Shown here: positions 1 through 20,977 of the stretch, in pieces
Numbering within the stretch: position 1 is the stretch's first letter
Layout of the letters: each line of letters begins with the position of its first letter
NCBI GenBank assembly: GCA_016869975.1
Contig: VGCZ01000038.1
Coordinates: forward strand, 1 to 51,426
Length of the DNA: 51,426 bases
Direction: 5' to 3'
DNA from: Alphaproteobacteria bacterium
GTDB taxonomy: Bacteria > Pseudomonadota > Alphaproteobacteria > Reyranellales > Reyranellaceae
Position numbers and translations under genes: made by a program
Notes under the pieces: generated by a model
Told to the model about the DNA's origin: nothing
Database searches by the model: none
What the model saw: the letters and a program-made list of their open reading frames with translations, nothing else

Positions 1-63
1 CGGAACAAACTTAAAATCCGTTGGGCTTTGCCCGTGCGGGTTCGAGTCCCGCAGCCCCGACCA
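1..63 (+). tRNA. 3' portion of tRNA-Leu(UAA), truncated or remnant
   Basis: The stretch reads as the 3' half of a class II tRNA: anticodon loop CTTAAAA (anticodon TAA), a long variable arm (GGGCTTTGCCC), a T arm with GGTTCGAGTCC, and an encoded CCA end at 61-63. The 5' half lies outside the window or is absent. The five bases before the loop (ACAAA) do not pair properly with the TCCGT that follows it; a normal gene would have ACGGA. That suggests the sequence left of the loop does not belong to an intact tRNA, as at the distal attachment site of an element integrated in tRNA-Leu. A diverged tRNA gene is the alternative. Confidence 0.7.
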
Positions 64-245
64 GATTTTTGGGCATCCGGCAAGCAGGCTGGCGCGTGCC
101 CTTGGATTGCGCTGTCAACACGCATCACGGCCTCGTGTTGTCGTCTCGCCAGACTGTTACTTCCAAGTGATCGAGTAAGGGCGCCATGCTGCGTGGCGTG
201 CCGGGAGAACCGGCACGGCATTCATCATCCTAGGGAGCTCCATCA

Positions 246-494
246 ATGACCATCAAGACCGCTACCGTGATCGCCGCCGCCGCCGCCGCTATGTTCGCCG
301 CCGGCACGATCGCGAGCGTCTCGCACGCCCAGGCGGGTGTGAAGTGCACCGGCATCAACTCGTGCAAGGGCACCAGCGCCTGCAAGACCGCGACGTCGGC
401 CTGCAAGGGCATGAACGCCTGCAAGGGCCAGGGCTGGGTTTCGGCCAAGGACCAGGCCGAGTGCACCAGCAAGGGCGGCAAGATCGCCGGCTGA
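246..494 (+). CDS. bufA2: BufA2-type bufferin precursor peptide
   Basis: An 82-residue secreted small protein. Residues 1-29 form an Ala-rich signal peptide ending near SHAQA. The mature part has six cysteines (34, 40, 46, 53, 59, 73), most in Cys-Lys-Gly or Ala-Cys-Lys contexts at near-regular spacing, and ends in a Lys/Gly-rich tail. This matches the BufA precursors of bufferins, copper-binding RiPPs whose cysteines are converted to thiooxazole-type heterocycles by an MNIO enzyme; the enzyme and its partner are the next two genes. Start ATG 246 follows the SD-like GGGAGCTCC. Family assignment is from cysteine pattern plus context; copper binding is inferred from the family. Confidence 0.8.
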
Positions 495-521
495 TCGCCG
501 GCGCATCGCGCCATATGTGGA

Positions 522-550
522 CGGGCGCCCCGGGAGACCGGCGGCGCCCG
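522..550 (+). promoter_or_regulatory. GNRA-capped hairpin between bufA and bufB
   Basis: CGGGCGCC at 522-529 pairs with GGCGCCCG at 543-550. Inside, CCGG (530-533) pairs with CCGG (538-541) around a GAGA tetraloop, leaving one bulged C at 542. There is no T-run after it, so it is unlikely to be a complete terminator. It may stabilise the abundant precursor mRNA or reduce read-through into the enzyme genes. The structure is seen; the role is inferred. Confidence 0.5.
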
Positions 551-576
551 CTCCGTCTTCGCGCTACACTCGACCG

Positions 577-1419
577 ATGACGAAGGTCGCCGACATGCAA
601 TTCGGTCTCGGGCTGCGCCACCAGCACTACCAGGAGATCGCCGATCAGCCCGGCCAGGTCGACTGGTTCGAGGCGCTCAGCGAGAACTATATGGTCGCCG
701 GCGGCCGGCCGCTGGTCTGGCTCGACCGTATCCGGCGCGACTATCCGATGGTTCTGCACGGCGTCTCGTTATCGATCGGCGCCAGCGATCCGCTCGATCT
801 CGACTATCTGGCCCAGCTCAAGGCGCTGGCCGCGCGCGTCGAGCCGCGCGTCGTCTCCGACCATCTCTGCTTCACCGGCCACGCCGGCATCAACCTGCAC
901 GACCTGCTGCCGCTGCCCTACACCGAGGAGGCGTTGGCCCATGTGGCGACCAGGGTCGCGCGCGTGCAGGACTTTCTGGGCCGTCGCATCCTGCTGGAGA
1001 ACGTCTCGAGCTACGTCCGCTACGCCGAGTCGCAGCTCAGCGAGTGGGAGTTCCTCGCCGCGCTCAGTGAACGCGCCGATTGCGACATCCTGCTCGACGT
1101 CAACAACATCTACGTCTCGGCCTTCAACCACGAGTTCGATCCGCGCGCCTATATCGCCGCGATCCCGCCGGCGCGGGTAAAACAGATCCATCTCGCCGGC
1201 CACAGCCACATGGGCACACACATCATCGACACCCACGACCATCCGGTGATCGACGACGTGTGGACGCTCTACGCCGAGGCGCTACGCCGCTTCGGCCCCG
1301 TGCCGACCATGATCGAGCGCGACGACGATATCCCGCCCTACGCCGATCTGGTGGCCGAGCTGGAGCGGGCGCGCCGGATCGCGGCGGCCACGCTGATGAC
1401 GCCGGAGAAGGCTGCGTGA
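577..1419 (+). CDS. bufB: MNIO-family (DUF692) bufferin maturase
   Basis: A 280-residue multinuclear non-heme iron-dependent oxidase with a TIM-barrel fold. Family signatures run in order: GLGLRHQHY at the start, [62 protein letters not shown] and the C-terminal MIERDDDIP, which supply the His, Glu, Asp and Asn iron ligands. In bufferin systems this enzyme modifies precursor cysteines. ATG 577 was chosen because the in-frame start at 517 would run through the hairpin; ATG 595 (MQFGLG) is also possible. Its stop overlaps the next start by 4 bp, so it is translationally coupled to the DUF2063 partner. Confidence 0.9.
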
Positions 1420-2210
1420 ACGCGCTTGTCACCCTGCAGGCCGAATTCTCGGCATGGATGCGCGGCTCGGCGGACACGCTGCGCGCGCGCGTGCTCGACA
1501 CCGAAAAGGCCGACCGCGACACGCTGCTGCGGGTCTATCGCGACGCCTATGCGCTGCGCCTGATCGAGGCGTTGACCACGGATTATCCCGGCCTGCTGGC
1601 GATGGCGGGGCCGGCGGAATTCGACATGATGGCGCGCGCCTATATCGCCGCGCACCCCTCCCGGCATCCCTCGGTGCGCTGGTTCGGCCGCGACCTTGCC
1701 GATTTCCTTGCCGTCACGCCACCCTTCGCCGGGACCCCGGACGCCGCCGATATGGCGCGCTTCGAATGGGCGCTGGGCGAGGCGTTCGACGCGGCCGACA
1801 CCGAGCCGCTGACCTTCGAGCAGCTCGCCGGCGCCCCGCCCGAGGCGTGGGCGACGTTACGCCTGTCCTTCGTGCCCGCGCTGCGCCGCCTGTCCTTGTC
1901 GTACCAGGCGCCGCAGGCCTGGCAACGACGCGACACGGTTCCGCCGGGCGAGCTCGACGTGTCGGCCGAGGATGGCGCCGTCGACTGGCTGATCTGGCGA
2001 CCGGCCGCCGATGGCGACGCGCAATTCCGCTCGATGGCGCCCGACGAGGCCGCCGCGCTCGACGCGGCGCTGGGCGGCGCGCCGTTCCCCGAGATCTGCG
2101 CCGTGCTGTCGGCCTACGCCGATTCGGCAGAAGCGGCCGCCGAGCGCGCCGCCGGGCTGCTACGCGCCTGGCTCGACGCGGGCGTGGTCGACGACGCGGC
2201 GTGGGGCTGA
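1416..2210 (+). CDS. bufC: DUF2063-family bufferin maturation partner
   Basis: A 264-residue protein starting at GTG 1416, which overlaps the MNIO stop (GTGA). The N-terminal helical part ([11 protein letters not shown], then [27 protein letters not shown] and the [19 protein letters not shown] block) is the DUF2063 signature. In MNIO systems DUF2063 proteins act as the partner that presents the precursor leader to the oxidase; older annotations call the domain DNA-binding. The gene ends 8 bp before a convergent transporter gene, so the operon closes here without the DoxX-like bufD membrane protein found in some bufferin loci. Confidence 0.85.
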
Positions 2211-2218
2211 GGCCGGCG

Positions 2219-3235
2219 CTATCTGCGCAGTGGGTCGAGGTGATCCTTGACGAAGCCAAGGTCGAGCATCTTGGCCATATCGGCGTCGCGCCCGACCATG
2301 CCCTGCGCCTGATACCAGGCGAGCTGGTCGTGCAGGTTCTTGACCAGCAGCCGGCCCTTGGGATCGATGTACGAGGCGCTCGCCCGGACCTGGTCGGCCG
2401 TCGGCTTGGGCTCGACGTATTTCTGGATGATCGGGATCAACGCATCGGCCTTGCCGTCAAACACGCGCTTGCCCTGGGCGTCGCGTTGCAGGAAGGCCTC
2501 GGCGTAGTCGTTGCAGGCTTTCACGTAGGCGGCGACGAACTTCTCGACCACGGCGCGGCGCTTCTCGATCACCGGCGTGCCGGCGAACAGCGCACCTAGC
2601 TGCCAGGGCGTCTCCTGGTGGACCCAGCCGACGATCTTGGCGAAGCCTTCCTTCTCGGCGGCGTAGGCGTTGTTGGCCGGTAGCAGCGCACCGTCGACCT
2701 GCTCGCCCTTCAGGGCCGCGGTGATGTTGGGAATCGACTGCAACGGCCGCAGCGTCACGTCGGTAAGCTTGAAGCCGCGCTTTTCCGCCAGCATGCCCAG
2801 CATGTAGTGGAAGGTCGAACCCGTTGTCGTGATGGCGATCGACTTGCCGGGGAACTTGCCGGCGTCGGTGAAGCCGGCCGCGTGCGCCTTGTTGGTGGCG
2901 AGATAGGCGACGAAGTCGTAACCCGGCTCCTCGCGCGATTGCGCTGCGATGATCTTCATCGCGCCCTTGCCGGCGAGATTGAAGAAGCCGCCGGTCAGCC
3001 CGGTGATGCCGAGATCGGCGTCGCCGCCGGCCACCGCGACGGCGATCGGCTGCGCCGCCTGGAAGAACTTGAACTCGACCTCGAGCCCGGCCTCCTTGAA
3101 GTAGCCTTTCTCCTGGGCGATGAAGATCGGCGCCGACGACACGAAGCGCAGCGCTGCGATCGATATCTTCTCCTGCGCCGAGGCGGCGGCTGATAGCACG
3201 AGCATCGCCAGCGCGGCGAGAATCGTCTTTATCAT
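2219..3235 (-). CDS. ABC transporter substrate-binding protein, NMT1/SsuA type
   Basis: A 338-residue periplasmic receptor. It has a signal peptide (MIKTILAALAMLVLSAAASA), a mature start EKISIAALRF, and the class motif IFIAQEKGYFKEAGLEVEF followed by GDADLGITGL, typical of NMT1/THI5, nitrate, taurine and sulfonate receptors. GSTFHYMLGMLAEKRG fits the ligand-binding helix. No permease or ATPase gene is adjacent, so the ligand cannot be assigned; it either works with a distant transporter or is an orphan receptor. It lies 40 bp downstream of the hydrolase gene on the same strand, with a 14-bp palindrome in the gap, so it may have its own promoter. Confidence 0.85.
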   Translation of the reverse strand: MIKTILAALAMLVLSAAASAQEKISIAALRFVSSAPIFIAQEKGYFKEAGLEVEFKFFQAAQPIAVAVAGGDADLGITGLTGGFFNLAGKGAMKIIAAQSREEPGYDFVAYLATNKAHAAGFTDAGKFPGKSIAITTTGSTFHYMLGMLAEKRGFKLTDVTLRPLQSIPNITAALKGEQVDGALLPANNAYAAEKEGFAKIVGWVHQETPWQLGALFAGTPVIEKRRAVVEKFVAAYVKACNDYAEAFLQRDAQGKRVFDGKADALIPIIQKYVEPKPTADQVRASASYIDPKGRLLVKNLHDQLAWYQAQGMVGRDADMAKMLDLGFVKDHLDPLRR

Positions 3236-4319: not shown

Positions 4320-6287
4320 TCAGCCACCCGCCGCCGGCGCCAGCGTCACAAGGATGGCGCGACCTGAAACCTGCTCGCCCTCGCGCACCGAGACCGTCGC
4401 GACGGTGCCGGCCGAGGCGGCTCGGATCTGGTGCTGCATCTTCATGGCTTCGAGGACGACCAGCGTCTGCCCCTTTTCGACGGCGTCTCCCGCGCCCACT
4501 CGAATGGACACGATGCGGCCATCCATCGGCGCGCGCAACACGCCATCCGCCGCACCATCGCGCGCCTGCGCCGGTTCGTGGGTGACGTCGGCAAAGGCCA
4601 AGGACAGGCCATCAAGGTCGAGCAGCAGGCGGTCGCCCGACCACAGCGCCTGTACGCGTCGCTGCGCGCCATCGACGCCCACGCGCACCCAGGCGCCATC
4701 CTCGGCGCCGATCTCGATCGTCGGGGCGTATTCGTCGATCCGGACCGTGACGCGGTGGCCGTCGCCCTCGACCAGGGCCTCCTGCCGCGCCTCGCCGGCC
4801 GACAGCCGCACCGTCGTCGACACCGGATTGGAGTTGCGCCAGCCCGCCAGTAGAGGCGTTACGCCAGCGGCGCTGCGGCGGAAGACCAGGGCGGCCGCCA
4901 ACGCCCAATGAAGGTCGCTCGGTACCGGCGGCGCGAGCGCGTCGCCATCGAAGTGTTGACCGATGAACGCGGTGGTCGCCTCGCCGGCGGCAAAGACCGG
5001 ATGGCGCAGCATGCGCAGCAGGAAATGACGGTTGGTGGTCGGCCCGAGCACCACGGTCTGCTCCAACGCCCGGGCCAGCTTGCGCACGGCCTCGGCGCGC
5101 GTGGCGCCGTGGGCGATCACCTTGGCGATCATCGGGTCGTAGAAGGCCGAGATCGCCTGGCCGTCGCGCATGCCGTGATCGGTACGCAGGCCCGGCCCCT
5201 CGGCCGGCCGCCAGGCCGCCACTGTGCCGGTCTGCGGCAGGAACCCGGCATAGGGATCCTCGGCGTAGAGCCTGACCTCGATGGCGTGGCCGTCGAGCGT
5301 CACGTCTTGCTGCGCCAGCGGCAGCGGCTCGCCCGCCGCGACGCGCAGCTGCCAGGCGACGAGGTCCTGCGCCGTGATCATCTCGGTCACCGGATGCTCG
5401 ACCTGCAGGCGAGTGTTCATCTCCAGGAAGTAGAACGCGCCATCGGCGCCGAGCAGAAATTCGACCGTGCCGGCGCCGCGGTAACCGATGGCGCGCGCCG
5501 CGGCGACGGCGGCCGCGCCCATGCGCTGGCGCAGCGCGCCATAGACGGCGGGCGAGGGGGCTTCCTCGATCACCTTCTGGTGGCGGCGCTGCACCGAGCA
5601 GTCCCGCTCGCCGAGATGGATCACGTTGCCGTGCGAATCGGCGAAGACCTGGATCTCGACATGGCGCGCGTCGACGACCGCTTTCTCGAGAATCAGTTCC
5701 CCTGATGCGAAAGCGTTCTGCGCCTCATTGCGCGCGCCGACGATCGCCTCGGCGAGCTCCGCCGAGTCGGTAACCAGCCGCATGCCACGTCCACCGCCGC
5801 CGGCCGCGGCCTTCACCATCACCGGCAGGCCGATCTTCGTGGCTTCGGCGATCAGGGTGGCGTCGCTCTGGTCCGCGCCCTGATAGCCCGGCACGCAGGG
5901 CACGCCAGCGTCGATCATGCGCCGCTTGGCCGCCGCCTTGTTGCCCATGGCGTCGATCGCCTGGGGCGGCGGCCCGATGAAGACCAGCCCGGCATCGGCG
6001 CAAGCCTGCGCGAAACCCGCGTTCTCGGACAGGAAGCCGTAGCCGGGATGCACCGCGTCGGCCCCTGACACGCGCGCGGCGGCCAACAGCTTCTCGACGT
6101 TGAGATAGCTCTCGCCGACCAAGGTGCCGCCCAGCGCCGCCGCCTCGTCGCAGGCCAGCACATGCGGTGCACCGGCATCGGCGTCGGAGAACACCGCGAC
6201 GGTTCGATAGCCCAGGGCATGCGCGGTGCGCGCGACGCGGCAGGCGATCTCGCCGCGATTGGCGATCAGGATCTTGGTGAAGCTCAT
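4320..6287 (-). CDS. atuF: Biotin-dependent acyl-CoA carboxylase alpha subunit (geranyl-CoA carboxylase type)
   Basis: A 655-residue protein combining biotin carboxylase and biotin carrier. The N-terminal IANRGEIACRV motif, KAAAGGGGRGMR ATP-grasp loop, ERDCSVQRRHQKVIEEAPSP and LEMNTRLQVEHPVTE (active-site Arg/Glu) mark the carboxylase. A BT-type linker follows, and the carrier ends in EAMKM, with biotinylated Lys near residue 616. ATG 6287 was chosen because it overlaps the hydratase stop (ATGA); the ATG three codons upstream is less likely. It pairs with the beta subunit at 9459 and probably carboxylates a 3-methylated unsaturated acyl-CoA. Methylcrotonyl-CoA carboxylase is the alternative; this subunit alone does not decide. 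Confidence 0.85.
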   Translation of the reverse strand: MSFTKILIANRGEIACRVARTAHALGYRTVAVFSDADAGAPHVLACDEAAALGGTLVGESYLNVEKLLAAARVSGADAVHPGYGFLSENAGFAQACADAGLVFIGPPPQAIDAMGNKAAAKRRMIDAGVPCVPGYQGADQSDATLIAEATKIGLPVMVKAAAGGGGRGMRLVTDSAELAEAIVGARNEAQNAFASGELILEKAVVDARHVEIQVFADSHGNVIHLGERDCSVQRRHQKVIEEAPSPAVYGALRQRMGAAAVAAARAIGYRGAGTVEFLLGADGAFYFLEMNTRLQVEHPVTEMITAQDLVAWQLRVAAGEPLPLAQQDVTLDGHAIEVRLYAEDPYAGFLPQTGTVAAWRPAEGPGLRTDHGMRDGQAISAFYDPMIAKVIAHGATRAEAVRKLARALEQTVVLGPTTNRHFLLRMLRHPVFAAGEATTAFIGQHFDGDALAPPVPSDLHWALAAALVFRRSAAGVTPLLAGWRNSNPVSTTVRLSAGEARQEALVEGDGHRVTVRIDEYAPTIEIGAEDGAWVRVGVDGAQRRVQALWSGDRLLLDLDGLSLAFADVTHEPAQARDGAADGVLRAPMDGRIVSIRVGAGDAVEKGQTLVVLEAMKMQHQIRAASAGTVATVSVREGEQVSGRAILVTLAPAAGG

Positions 6288-17461: not shown

Positions 17462-20400
17462 TCACTCCGCCGCCATCGCCGGCGGCTGCGCCGGGCTGCG
17501 GAAGAGGGCGAGCAGGTTGGCCTCGCGCTCCTTCGCCTTCTTCAGGTTCTTGTCCTTCACATGGCCGAAGCCGCGGATCGTCTCGGGCAGGCCTGCGATC
17601 TGCGCCGCCAGCGCATGGTTGGACTGGTCGAGCTTGCCGATAATCTCGGACAGGGTCTCCATGTACTCGTCGATCAGGCGCCGCTCGGTGCGCCGCTCCT
17701 CGGTGTAGCCGAAGATGTCGAAGGCGGTACCGCGCAGGCTCTTGAGCTTGGCCAGCACGCGGAACACCGAGAACACCCAGGGCCCGTACTCGCCCTTCTT
17801 CAATTCGCCGGTGACCGGATCGCGGTCGGCCAGCAGCGGCGGCGCGAGATTGAACTTCAGCTTGAAGTCGCCTTCGAACTGCGTGCGCAGCTTCTTCTCG
17901 AAGTCGCCATCGGTGTAGAGGCGGGCGACCTCGTACTCGTCCTTGTAGGCCATCAGCTTGTACAACGAGCGCGCAACCGCCTCGGCCAGTCCCGTGCGAC
18001 CCTTGGCGCGCGCCTTCTCGGCCGACGCGACCTTCTCGACGAAGGCGCGGTAACGCTCGGCGTAGGTGGCGTTCTGGTAGGCCGTCAGCAGCGACACGCG
18101 CTTGCTCACCAGCTCATCGAGCGACTGCGGCGGTAGTTTTTCCTCGCGGATCTGCGGGCGTGCCACGGCCTCGACGGCGGCCGGATCGTGCGCCGCCAGT
18201 CGGCCCCAGTCGAAGGTGCGCAGGCTGGTGTCGACGGCGACGCCGTTGAGCTCGATGGCGCGGCGCAGCGCCTGCAGCGACAGCGGGATCAGGCCCTTCT
18301 GCCAGGCGTAGCCGACCATGAATAGGTTGGTGGCGATCGAGTCGCCGAGGATCGCCGTGGCGATACCGGTGGCGTCGACGAATTCGGCGCCAGCCCCGCC
18401 CGTCGCCTCGCGGATCGAGCGCATCATCGCCTGCTGCTCGAAGTTGATGTCGTTGTCGATGACGAACGAGGCCGTCGGCGCGACGTAGCCGTTGATCACC
18501 GCGCGGGTCACGCCCTGCTCGATGCGCGACAGCGCCGCCGGCGCCGCGGCCACGACCATGTCGCAACCCAGCACCAGGTTCGCGCCACCGGCGGCGATGC
18601 GCACGGCGTGCAGATCGCCGGGCGTCGGCGCCAAACGCACGTGGCTCATCACCGCGCCGTTCTTCTGCGCCAGGCCGGTGAAGTCGAGCGACGTGCAGCC
18701 GCGGCCTTCGAGATGGGCGGCCATGGCAATCAACTGGCCGACGGTGATCACGCCGGTGCCGCCGATACCGGTGACGAGGATGCCGTAGGCCTCGTTGAGC
18801 GGCCGCACGGTGGGCATCGGCAGGTTGGCGAAAGGATCGTCCTGCACCGCGTCGGCCGCGGCCTTGCGGTTACGCTTCAGGCGGCCGCCATGGACGGTGA
18901 CGAAGCTCGGGCAGAAGCCGTTGACGCAGGAGAAGTCCTTGTTGCAGTTGCTCTGGTCGATCTGGCGCTTGCGGCCGAGCTCGGTTTCCAGCGGCCGCAC
19001 CGAGACGCAATTGCTCTTCTCCGAGCAGTCGCCGCAACCCTCGCACACCGAATCGTTGATGAAGGCGCGCTTCTGCGGATCGGGGAAGGTACCGCGCTTG
19101 CGCCGGCGTCGCTTTTCCGCCGCGCAAGTCTGGTCGTAGACCAGCACGGTGAGACCTGGAGTCTCGCGCAGCTCCTTCTGCACCGCATCGAGCTCGTCAC
19201 GGTGGTGAATGGTGACGCCGGGCGCGAAGTCGCTGCCCATCGGATACTTGTCGGGCTCGTCGGTGACGACGACAACGCGCTGCGCGCCCTCGGCCGAGAC
19301 CTGCCGCGTGATCTGCGGCACGGTCAGCGGGCCATCATGCGGCTGGCCGCCAGTCATGGCGACGGCGTCATTGAACAGAATCTTATAGGTAATGTTGACG
19401 CCGGCGGCACCGGCGGCGCGGATCGCCATCAGACCGGAGTGGTGATAGGTGCCATCGCCCAGGTTCTGGAAGATGTGCTTTTCCGATGTGAACGGCGCCG
19501 AGCCGATCCACGGCACGCCCTCGCCACCCATATGCGTGATCAGCGATGTGCGGCGATGCGGCATCAGCATCGCCATGCCATGGCAGCCAATACCAGCCAT
19601 GGCGCGGCTGCCGTCGGGAACGCGGGTCGAGGTGTTGTGCGGGCAGCCCGAGCAGAAGAACGGCGTGCGCACGGTCTTGGGCGGCGGCGCCTGCAGCAGC
19701 TTCTCCTTGGCCTCCACACGCGCGAGGCGCTGGATGATCTCCGGCCCACCCTCGCCACGCTGCTTCAGCCGCTCGGCGATCACTCGGGCCACGCCGGTCG
19801 GCGACAGCTCGCCCTCGGTCGGCTGGATGCGCCGGCCGGTGTCGTCGTACTTGCCGATGATCTTGGGCCGGCGCTCGGCCGGCGTGTTGTAGAGCAGCTT
19901 GGTGAGCTGGTCCTCGAGGATCTCGCGCTTCTCCTCGACGACGATGACCTCCTCGAGACCCTCGGCGAAGGCGCGCGCGCGCACCGGCTCGAGCGGCCAG
20001 GTCATGCCGACCTTGTAGAGCCGGATGCCGAGTTGCAGCGCCTTGTCCTCGGTGATGCCGAGATCCTCGAGCGCCTGGCGCGTATCGAGATAGGCCTTGC
20101 CCGTGGTCATGATGCCGATGCGCGCCTTGGGCGGATCGAACACCAGCTTGTCGATGGCGTTGGCGCGCGCGAAGGCCTTCACCGCCTCGAGCTTGAAGAG
20201 ATGCAGGCGCTTTTCCTGCTCCATCGGCGGGTCGGGATTGCGGATGTTCAAGCCACCCGGCGGAATCTCGAAATCGGCGGGGATCACGACCTTGAGATTG
20301 TCGGGATCGATGTTGACCGAGGCGCCGCTCTCGACCGTCTCGGAGATCGCCTTGAAGCCGATCCAGCAGCCGGAATAGCGCGACATCGCGAAACCGAGCA

Positions 20401-20977
20401 GGCCGAAATCGATATACTCCTGCACCGTCGCCGGGTTGAGCACCGGCACCAGCGCTGCCTGGAAGACCTGCTCGGACTGATGCGGCAGGGTCGAGGACTG
20501 GCAGCCATGGTCGTCGCCGGCCAGCACCAGCACACCGCCGTTGGGTGAGGAGCCGGCGGCGTTGCCGTGCTTGATCGGGTCCATCGAGCGGTCGACGCCG
20601 GGTCCCTTGCCGTACCAGATCGCGAAGACGCCATCGACCGTCGCGCCCTGGAAGAGATTGACCTGCTGCGTACCCCAGACGGCTGTGGCGGCGAGATCCT
20701 CGTTGAGGCCGGGCTTGAAGTGGATGTTGTTGGTGGCGAGGAACTTCTTCGCGCTCCACAACGCGTTATCATACATGCCCAATGGCGAGCCGCGGTAGCC
20801 CGAGATGAAGCCGCCAGTGTTCAGGCCGGCCGCCTGGTCGCGCTGGCGCTGCATCATCGGCAGACGCACCAGCGCCTGGATGCCGGTGAGGTACACGCGC
20901 CCGCGCTCGCGGACATAGCGGTCCTCCAGCGTGTAGTTGTCGAGCGTCAGGTCGGCGATCTTCGCTGGCGCGTTCAT
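17462..20977 (-). CDS. Indolepyruvate:ferredoxin oxidoreductase, fused alpha-beta
   Basis: A 1171-residue fusion of the IorA-like and IorB-like parts. In order: pyrimidine-binding region (SGYRGSPLGMYD), the transketolase-like middle, the ThDP-binding block GIGCHGMAMLMPHR through GDGTYHHSG to NDAVAMTGGQ, a Cys cluster CEGCGDCSEKSNC near residue 645, further cysteines (CNKDFSCVNGFCPSF), and the gamma-type domain ILVTGIGGTGVITVGQLI. It decarboxylates aryl or branched 2-oxoacids to acyl-CoA and passes electrons to ferredoxin. This long oxygen-tolerant form is common in aerobic proteobacteria. A TATAAA -10-like box (21024-21019, minus strand) precedes the gene. Confidence 0.9.
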   Translation of the reverse strand: MNAPAKIADLTLDNYTLEDRYVRERGRVYLTGIQALVRLPMMQRQRDQAAGLNTGGFISGYRGSPLGMYDNALWSAKKFLATNNIHFKPGLNEDLAATAVWGTQQVNLFQGATVDGVFAIWYGKGPGVDRSMDPIKHGNAAGSSPNGGVLVLAGDDHGCQSSTLPHQSEQVFQAALVPVLNPATVQEYIDFGLLGFAMSRYSGCWIGFKAISETVESGASVNIDPDNLKVVIPADFEIPPGGLNIRNPDPPMEQEKRLHLFKLEAVKAFARANAIDKLVFDPPKARIGIMTTGKAYLDTRQALEDLGITEDKALQLGIRLYKVGMTWPLEPVRARAFAEGLEEVIVVEEKREILEDQLTKLLYNTPAERRPKIIGKYDDTGRRIQPTEGELSPTGVARVIAERLKQRGEGGPEIIQRLARVEAKEKLLQAPPPKTVRTPFFCSGCPHNTSTRVPDGSRAMAGIGCHGMAMLMPHRRTSLITHMGGEGVPWIGSAPFTSEKHIFQNLGDGTYHHSGLMAIRAAGAAGVNITYKILFNDAVAMTGGQPHDGPLTVPQITRQVSAEGAQRVVVVTDEPDKYPMGSDFAPGVTIHHRDELDAVQKELRETPGLTVLVYDQTCAAEKRRRRKRGTFPDPQKRAFINDSVCEGCGDCSEKSNCVSVRPLETELGRKRQIDQSNCNKDFSCVNGFCPSFVTVHGGRLKRNRKAAADAVQDDPFANLPMPTVRPLNEAYGILVTGIGGTGVITVGQLIAMAAHLEGRGCTSLDFTGLAQKNGAVMSHVRLAPTPGDLHAVRIAAGGANLVLGCDMVVAAAPAALSRIEQGVTRAVINGYVAPTASFVIDNDINFEQQAMMRSIREATGGAGAEFVDATGIATAILGDSIATNLFMVGYAWQKGLIPLSLQALRRAIELNGVAVDTSLRTFDWGRLAAHDPAAVEAVARPQIREEKLPPQSLDELVSKRVSLLTAYQNATYAERYRAFVEKVASAEKARAKGRTGLAEAVARSLYKLMAYKDEYEVARLYTDGDFEKKLRTQFEGDFKLKFNLAPPLLADRDPVTGELKKGEYGPWVFSVFRVLAKLKSLRGTAFDIFGYTEERRTERRLIDEYMETLSEIIGKLDQSNHALAAQIAGLPETIRGFGHVKDKNLKKAKEREANLLALFRSPAQPPAMAAE

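Follow-up and report, generated by a model that had tools for sequence, protein, structure and literature searches.

We analyzed a stretch of alphaproteobacterial DNA of 51,426 nucleotides (hereafter, the window), which belongs to a genome of the family Reyranellaceae and represents contig VGCZ01000038.1. Near the beginning of the window, three genes lie in a row on the forward strand, with a short sequence block before the first gene and a stem-loop between the first two. The features are as follows:

146..162, + strand: candidate promoter/operator block TCGCCAGACTGTTACTT, 100 nt before bufA2, kept in relatives
246..494, + strand: bufA2, precursor of 82 aa (basis, NF050166.1)
518..555, + strand: stem-loop (GGGCGCC...GGCGCCC) between bufA2 and bufB, GC-rich and without a T-run
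577..1419 (alternative start, 595), + strand: bufB, MNIO (DUF692) maturase of 280 aa (basis, NF050167.1, PF05114, fold and Asp249-Asp250)
1416..2210, + strand: bufC, DUF2063 partner of PME type 1 whose second domain is RRE-like, 264 aa (basis, PF09836 and fold)

A preliminary description made from the letters of this DNA had proposed a bufA2-bufB-bufC operon at 246-2210. The coordinates were exact, and the models NF050166, NF050167, PF05114 and PF09836 were all matched over their cut-offs. It had also described a six-Cys precursor followed by an MNIO and a DUF2063 partner with a 4-bp overlap; we confirmed this order, and the overlap between bufB and bufC reads GTGA, with GTG as the start codon of bufC. 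Both 577 and 595 are possible starts of bufB, the latter being considered because the matches of many relatives start only at residue 7-9. The gene after bufC (2219-3235) lies on the opposite (-) strand.

Related loci were picked by MNIO protein similarity alone, and the best 80 of 222 were retained. A BufA2-like gene was present on the same strand and at most 1.2 kb upstream of the MNIO gene in 77 of the 81 loci (the window plus the best 80 of 222), as counted with a BufA2 profile that was seeded with the precursors of the window and of six of the counted loci. The precursor preceded the MNIO in 76/80 relatives when the window was excluded. With loci gathered by the MNIO alone, this frequency shows that the order of precursor and MNIO is not a matter of chance. 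Gaps between the BufA2-like gene and the MNIO gene ranged from 66 to 867 nt in the 77 operons. The window contains a single precursor copy, whereas at least two separate BufA2 ORFs lie upstream of the MNIO in 32 of these 77 operons. Behind the MNIO, an ORF of 230-320 aa started at exactly -4 in 58/80 relatives (best 80 of 222); in a separate scan, 5/81 loci showed no partner ORF and 3/81 were cut off. Four loci fell outside the 77/81 count: L017 carries BufA2 elsewhere in the locus and on the other strand, L041 and L054 have an upstream Cys-rich ORF of a different kind, and L047 has an upstream CKG-repeat ORF that was overlooked by the BufA2 profile. The L047 precursor (Sphingopyxis, about 4380-4900) consists of repeated SSCKGASGCKGD-like units before a BufB-like MNIO and does not have the six-Cys form.

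The BufA2 precursor scored 85.2 bits against the NCBIfam model NF050166.1 (cut-off, 60; E 2.6e-24) and had no Pfam match at E 0.1. By eye, its N terminus comprises Lys and an Ala-rich stretch resembling a Sec-type signal, with a putative cleavage site near SHA/QA. The six Cys residues are at positions 34, 40, 46, 53, 59 and 73, and four Cys-Lys motifs are present (C40-K, C46-K, C53-K and C59-K). When 18 BufA2 proteins were aligned (the window plus 17 hand-chosen from the loci), neither the six Cys residues nor the three CKG units (residues 40-42, 53-55 and 59-61) varied; the CKG-rich core is therefore a signature of the family. The preliminary description had called this core distinctive, which holds as a description but not as a distinction, and we rejected the presence of a distinctive feature in the window precursor, as its conserved residues match those of the family. 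One of the frequent 5-mer motifs that PMC13097082 tested is NACKG. According to PMC12452194, Buf2 precursors have six or twelve conserved Cys and a length of 51-367; the window precursor has six Cys and 82 aa.

Of 61 genomes (37 from the family of the window, and its own genome among them), 24 had a match over the cut-off of the BufA2 model, whereas none of the 14 named controls had one. Several genomes of the family carry many BufA2 genes; G020, a draft of about 60 contigs, has nine over the cut-off, partly in tandem. The maximum number of Buf_6/12Cys genes per fully assembled genome is four in Table 3 of PMC12452194. In the genome of the window, a weak match to the BufA2 model (28.8 bits) was also observed at C32:37431-37637.

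BufB matched NF050167.1 (NCBIfam) with 395.9 bits (cut-off, 310; E 7.2e-119) and PF05114 with an E of 1.5e-115. Its closest relatives among the best 80 of 222 loci share 94% identity with it; they belong to two MAGs (L006 and L007), one of Reyranellaceae and one labelled alphaproteobacterial. The BufB of Reyranella sp. CPCC 100927 follows with 84% identity. Judged by these relatives, the bacterium falls near or in the Reyranellaceae. The residues H61, H96, E141, D174, H205, D218, H220, E247 and D249 were kept in 81/81 MNIOs (the window plus the best 80 of 222), as well as in the two further MNIOs that the same genome encodes. Residue 250, which follows the catalytic Asp249, was Asp in 78/81 of these MNIOs, including that of the window, and Ala in 3/81; the equivalent position is occupied by Phe in 3bww, Thr in the Buf1 MNIO of the same genome and Gly in its TIGR04222-linked MNIO. 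Asp after the catalytic Asp is described as the mark of Cys-Lys enzymes, and Phe as that of Lys-Cys enzymes, in PMC13097082; residue 250 was equated with FonB Asp249-Phe250 through the E-x-D motif rather than by aligning FonB or BufB2. The structure of BufB was predicted from an alignment of 19 sequences with a pLDDT of 88.9, and the first fold matches were 3bww, TglH and MbnB, followed by other TIM barrels.

BufC scored 73 bits against PF09836 (DUF2063; cut-off, 27.2; E 2.4e-20). The only NCBIfam model that it matched was HvfC, which represents another subfamily, with 25.6 bits (far under the cut-off of 142), and a sequence search found no match in the PDB. The AlphaFold2 model of BufC, based on an alignment of 27 sequences, had a mean pLDDT of 93.3. 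Three PDB entries matched this fold with E <0.001, namely TglI (8hi7_A and 8hci_A; E 3e-8, TM 0.63) and NGO1945 (3dee; E 8e-6, TM 0.60), and matches to stand-alone lasso-peptide RRE proteins were insignificant (E about 0.5). A PME type 1 partner combines DUF2063 with an RRE-fold domain and most often has 250-260 aa (PMC12452194). BufC, with its PF09836 match, length of 264 aa and whole-fold matches to 8hi7_A and 3dee, is of this kind.

We compared the operon with described systems. The Buf2/BufA2 (Buf_6/12Cys) operons (PMC12452194; NF050166 and NF050167) share with the window six conserved Cys, the order bufA-bufB-bufC and a PME-type 1 partner, and the N terminus of the window precursor, judged by eye, may be of the Sec type as theirs is; we found no essential difference. 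In the Cys-Lys captophorins (PMC13097082), the precursor likewise carries several Cys-Lys motifs and the MNIO has Asp behind its catalytic Asp; no difference was found in a comparison by genes and residues. By sequence, D250 in the window MNIO and the Cys-Lys motifs in its substrate place the operon in the Cys-Lys group. The Buf1 operon of the same genome (L002) resembles that of the window in the order of precursor, MNIO and DUF2063 partner with an overlap, but differs in its DUF2282 precursor, its DoxX gene and Thr instead of Asp at MNIO position 250. Membership of the window operon in Buf1 (DUF2282) was rejected, since the window precursor has no Pfam match at E 0.1, whereas the precursor on contig 9 matches DUF2282. 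The Lys-Cys type (oxazolin and fontiphorin; HvfABC) shares the enzyme pair and the class of chemistry, but its core is EGKCG, whereas that of the window is CKG. In addition, the HvfB model scored 281.4 bits on BufB, under its cut-off of 360, and HvfA-type membership was rejected.

The composition of a bufferin locus, as put forward in the preliminary description, was thus borne out by the curated models, the common order in 76 of the best 80 of 222 relatives, Asp250 and the agreement of the two predicted structures. We conclude, with a probability of roughly 0.9, that 246-2210 is a Buf2-type (BufA2, Buf_6/12Cys, "Cys-Lys") bufferin operon whose modified product would chelate copper. The operon is a further example of the described family of Buf2 bufferins and Cys-Lys captophorins and an ordinary member of it; it extends the lineages with a Buf2 bufferin by one, while the understanding of the family stays as it was.

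For this class, thiooxazole formation and copper binding have been published (PMC13097082 and PMC12452194), and the function proposed here follows this work on relatives. BufA2 would be synthesized with the putative Sec-type signal sequence seen by eye and, before export, the DUF2063/RRE partner BufC would hold the precursor. The iron enzyme BufB would then turn Cys residues into 5-thiooxazoles by oxidation; the likely modified sites are the central Cys at 40, 46, 53 and 59, each of which is followed by Lys. In Buf1, the central Cys are modified and the outer Cys form a disulfide (PMC12452194); by analogy, the outer Cys 34 and 73 may form a disulfide in the window precursor. Once exported, the modified peptide would chelate excess copper in the periplasm.

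Alternatively, the same operon could produce a mature peptide directed not at copper but at another metal or redox stress (e.g., mercury, gold or oxidants). MerC-bufferin fusions have been reported (PMC12452194), and PMC13097082 states that such pathways are induced by gold and by oxidative stress as well and that their metal selectivity is unclear. Furthermore, no known copper family was recognized near the operon among the Pfam matches of the 33 further window ORFs; the contig ends upstream. However, the characterized products "generally bind Cu" according to PMC13097082, and the window precursor keeps the pattern of the family in the 18-protein alignment. We regard a target other than copper as unlikely. 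That the operon has decayed or fallen silent is far less probable still. It lies beside a tRNA-Leu gene at the contig edge, and a second bufferin operon exists in the same genome; tRNA genes are landing places of mobile pieces. Nevertheless, all three frames are open, the window proteins retain the conserved alignment columns, and L006 and L007 combine a 94% identical BufB with the same upstream tRNA-Leu(UAA). A methanobactin-like copper-acquiring system deserves hardly any credence, for although the MNIO family is common to both and the MbnB model weakly matches BufB, its 69.4 bits are far under the cut-off of 325, so that membership was rejected when tested, whereas the BufB and BufA2 models pass and the partner is a DUF2063 protein.

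Within the operon, the gap between the precursor and enzyme genes contains the stem-loop. The region 490-590 folded at -50.2 kcal/mol (z -2.13), and 7 of 200 shuffled sequences folded equally well. The core stem (518-555) ends 21 nt before bufB, or 39 nt with the later start, and the best stem including outer pairs extends to 13 nt before 577. We then compared the 77 operons with an upstream BufA2 (from the window plus the best 80 of 222 loci). With 40 shuffles each, a gap stem with z < -2 was found in 71/77 operons, which are not independent as 31/77 are titled Bradyrhizobium, versus 9/77 in an equally long piece within the MNIO gene. When the comparison was repeated with 25 shuffles each, such stems were found after bufA2 in 68/77, upstream of bufA2 in 29/77 and after bufC in 7/59. 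Reyranellaceae, together with some further alphaproteobacteria, have stems of the form GGGCG(C/T)C.., and Bradyrhizobium has GGCCCGG..; the gammaproteobacterial loci L020, L022, L030 and L031 have AAAGGCTG- or AGGCTG-type stems with a T-run.

T-runs were weak in GC-rich operons. In the 8 nt past the best stem, at least four T were present in 16/77 and at least three in 36/77 operons, although the choice of the stem by energy can absorb part of a T-run and thereby affect these counts. A search of window positions 50-2300 for T-tailed terminators found none, with 0.6 expected. The pattern GGGCGCC-N4..14-GGCGCCC occurred at 10 places in the genome, and the reversed pattern at one. Weak T-runs, the absence of a flagged terminator in the window and the occurrence of the motif elsewhere in the genome weigh against a simple intrinsic terminator. 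The many stems upstream of bufA2 and the relatedness of the loci also speak against giving the stem-loop a role of its own. A separate bufBC promoter behind the stem hardly fits in the window, given the short distance from the core stem to bufB. The conserved position of the stem suggests that the precursor and enzyme genes are differentially expressed. The stem-loop probably reduces the transcription of the enzyme genes or the stability of their mRNA, with substrate then exceeding enzyme, and it is likely a device for such an excess of precursor. Whether this extends to Buf2 operons generally, with the stem-loop as a leaky terminator or RNA-stability block that sets the precursor well above the maturase and with stem letters that vary by clade while the position is kept, is a proposal to which we assign about even odds. 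It would offer a simple account of how such operons could yield much peptide and little enzyme. In the set of papers that we searched, we found no earlier description of a terminator in bufferin operons, and the word is absent from PMC12452194.

Upstream of the operon, we found no consensus sigma-70 promoter in the window. The 17-mer block is present in the window with two mismatches and exactly in L006-L009 and L093, at -98 to -103 from bufA2; its holders are the window, three more loci from the same genus and two from genus g4, which belongs to the same family. A variant lies 73-111 nt before bufA2 in loci of genus g3, also of this family. Among 12 relatives, this variant gave 12 matches with at most one mismatch, of which nine were about 70-111 nt before bufA2 and three were not, with two for the reversed control. 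When the 17-mer was sought in 104 loci (duplicates counted), 27 matched with at most five mismatches, several clearly by chance. In the genome of the window, there were one exact and two further two-mismatch matches, and the reversed control gave two; in G020, none of the nine bufA2 copies was marked by the 17-mer. These matches and the unmarked copies in G020 argue against a regulon box, which we rejected; the block probably forms part of a promoter region that belongs to a single orthologous operon.

Directly before the block, a GTGAT-N6-ATCAC-like palindrome, inexact in some cases, was observed in L087, L089, L094, L097, L100, L101, L105, L106 and L108. These loci belong to genera g3 and g5, and the palindrome possibly shares letters with the stop codon of the gene before it. 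By eye, window positions 1-63 are the 3' portion of a tRNA-Leu(UAA) gene truncated at the contig edge, and the window holds no complete tRNA. In L006 and L007, a complete tRNA-Leu(UAA) with the same sequence precedes the operon; L009 has none.

The preliminary description had further remarked that no DoxX-like gene is attached to the operon. This is correct, as the next gene is on the other strand, but it does not set the operon apart: just 3/81 loci (the window plus the best 80 of 222) had a DoxX-like ORF on the same strand between -1500 and +3000 relative to the MNIO, a count in which misses are possible because the profile was grown from the single DoxX on contig 9 and some loci are short. 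The absence of DoxX is therefore usual among the relatives. The 33 further window ORFs match ordinary metabolic, transport and DNA-repair families, except for three that have no match at E 1e-5. One of them (17462-20977) encodes a protein of 1171 aa with POR (pyruvate-ferredoxin oxidoreductase gamma-type) and DUF6537 domains according to Pfam, which is likely an indolepyruvate ferredoxin oxidoreductase.

MNIO genes were found in 75/75 genomes of the family. The genome of the window has three, on contigs 38 (the window), 9 and 21, and DUF2063 at two places, on contigs 9 and 38. Three different MNIO loci, i.e., Buf2, Buf1 and TIGR04222-linked, thus occur in one genome. L002 (G000:C9, MNIO 120738-121523) is a complete Buf1 operon with a DUF2282 precursor (84 bits; cut-off, 22.4), MNIO, DUF2063 and DoxX (40.1 bits; cut-off, 23.6). 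In the third locus, L003 (G000:C21, MNIO 83561-84343; locus ORFs 578-1489, 1477-2337 and 2297-2644), the MNIO is preceded by a membrane protein that matches TIGR04222 (57.3 bits; cut-off, 43) and has a tail rich in Gly, Ser and Cys. Behind the MNIO lies a small ORF with weak similarity to the NHLP/Os17 leader peptide (28.5 bits, under the cut-off of 40). The MNIO may here be paired with a precursor of the NHLP type, which would be unusual.
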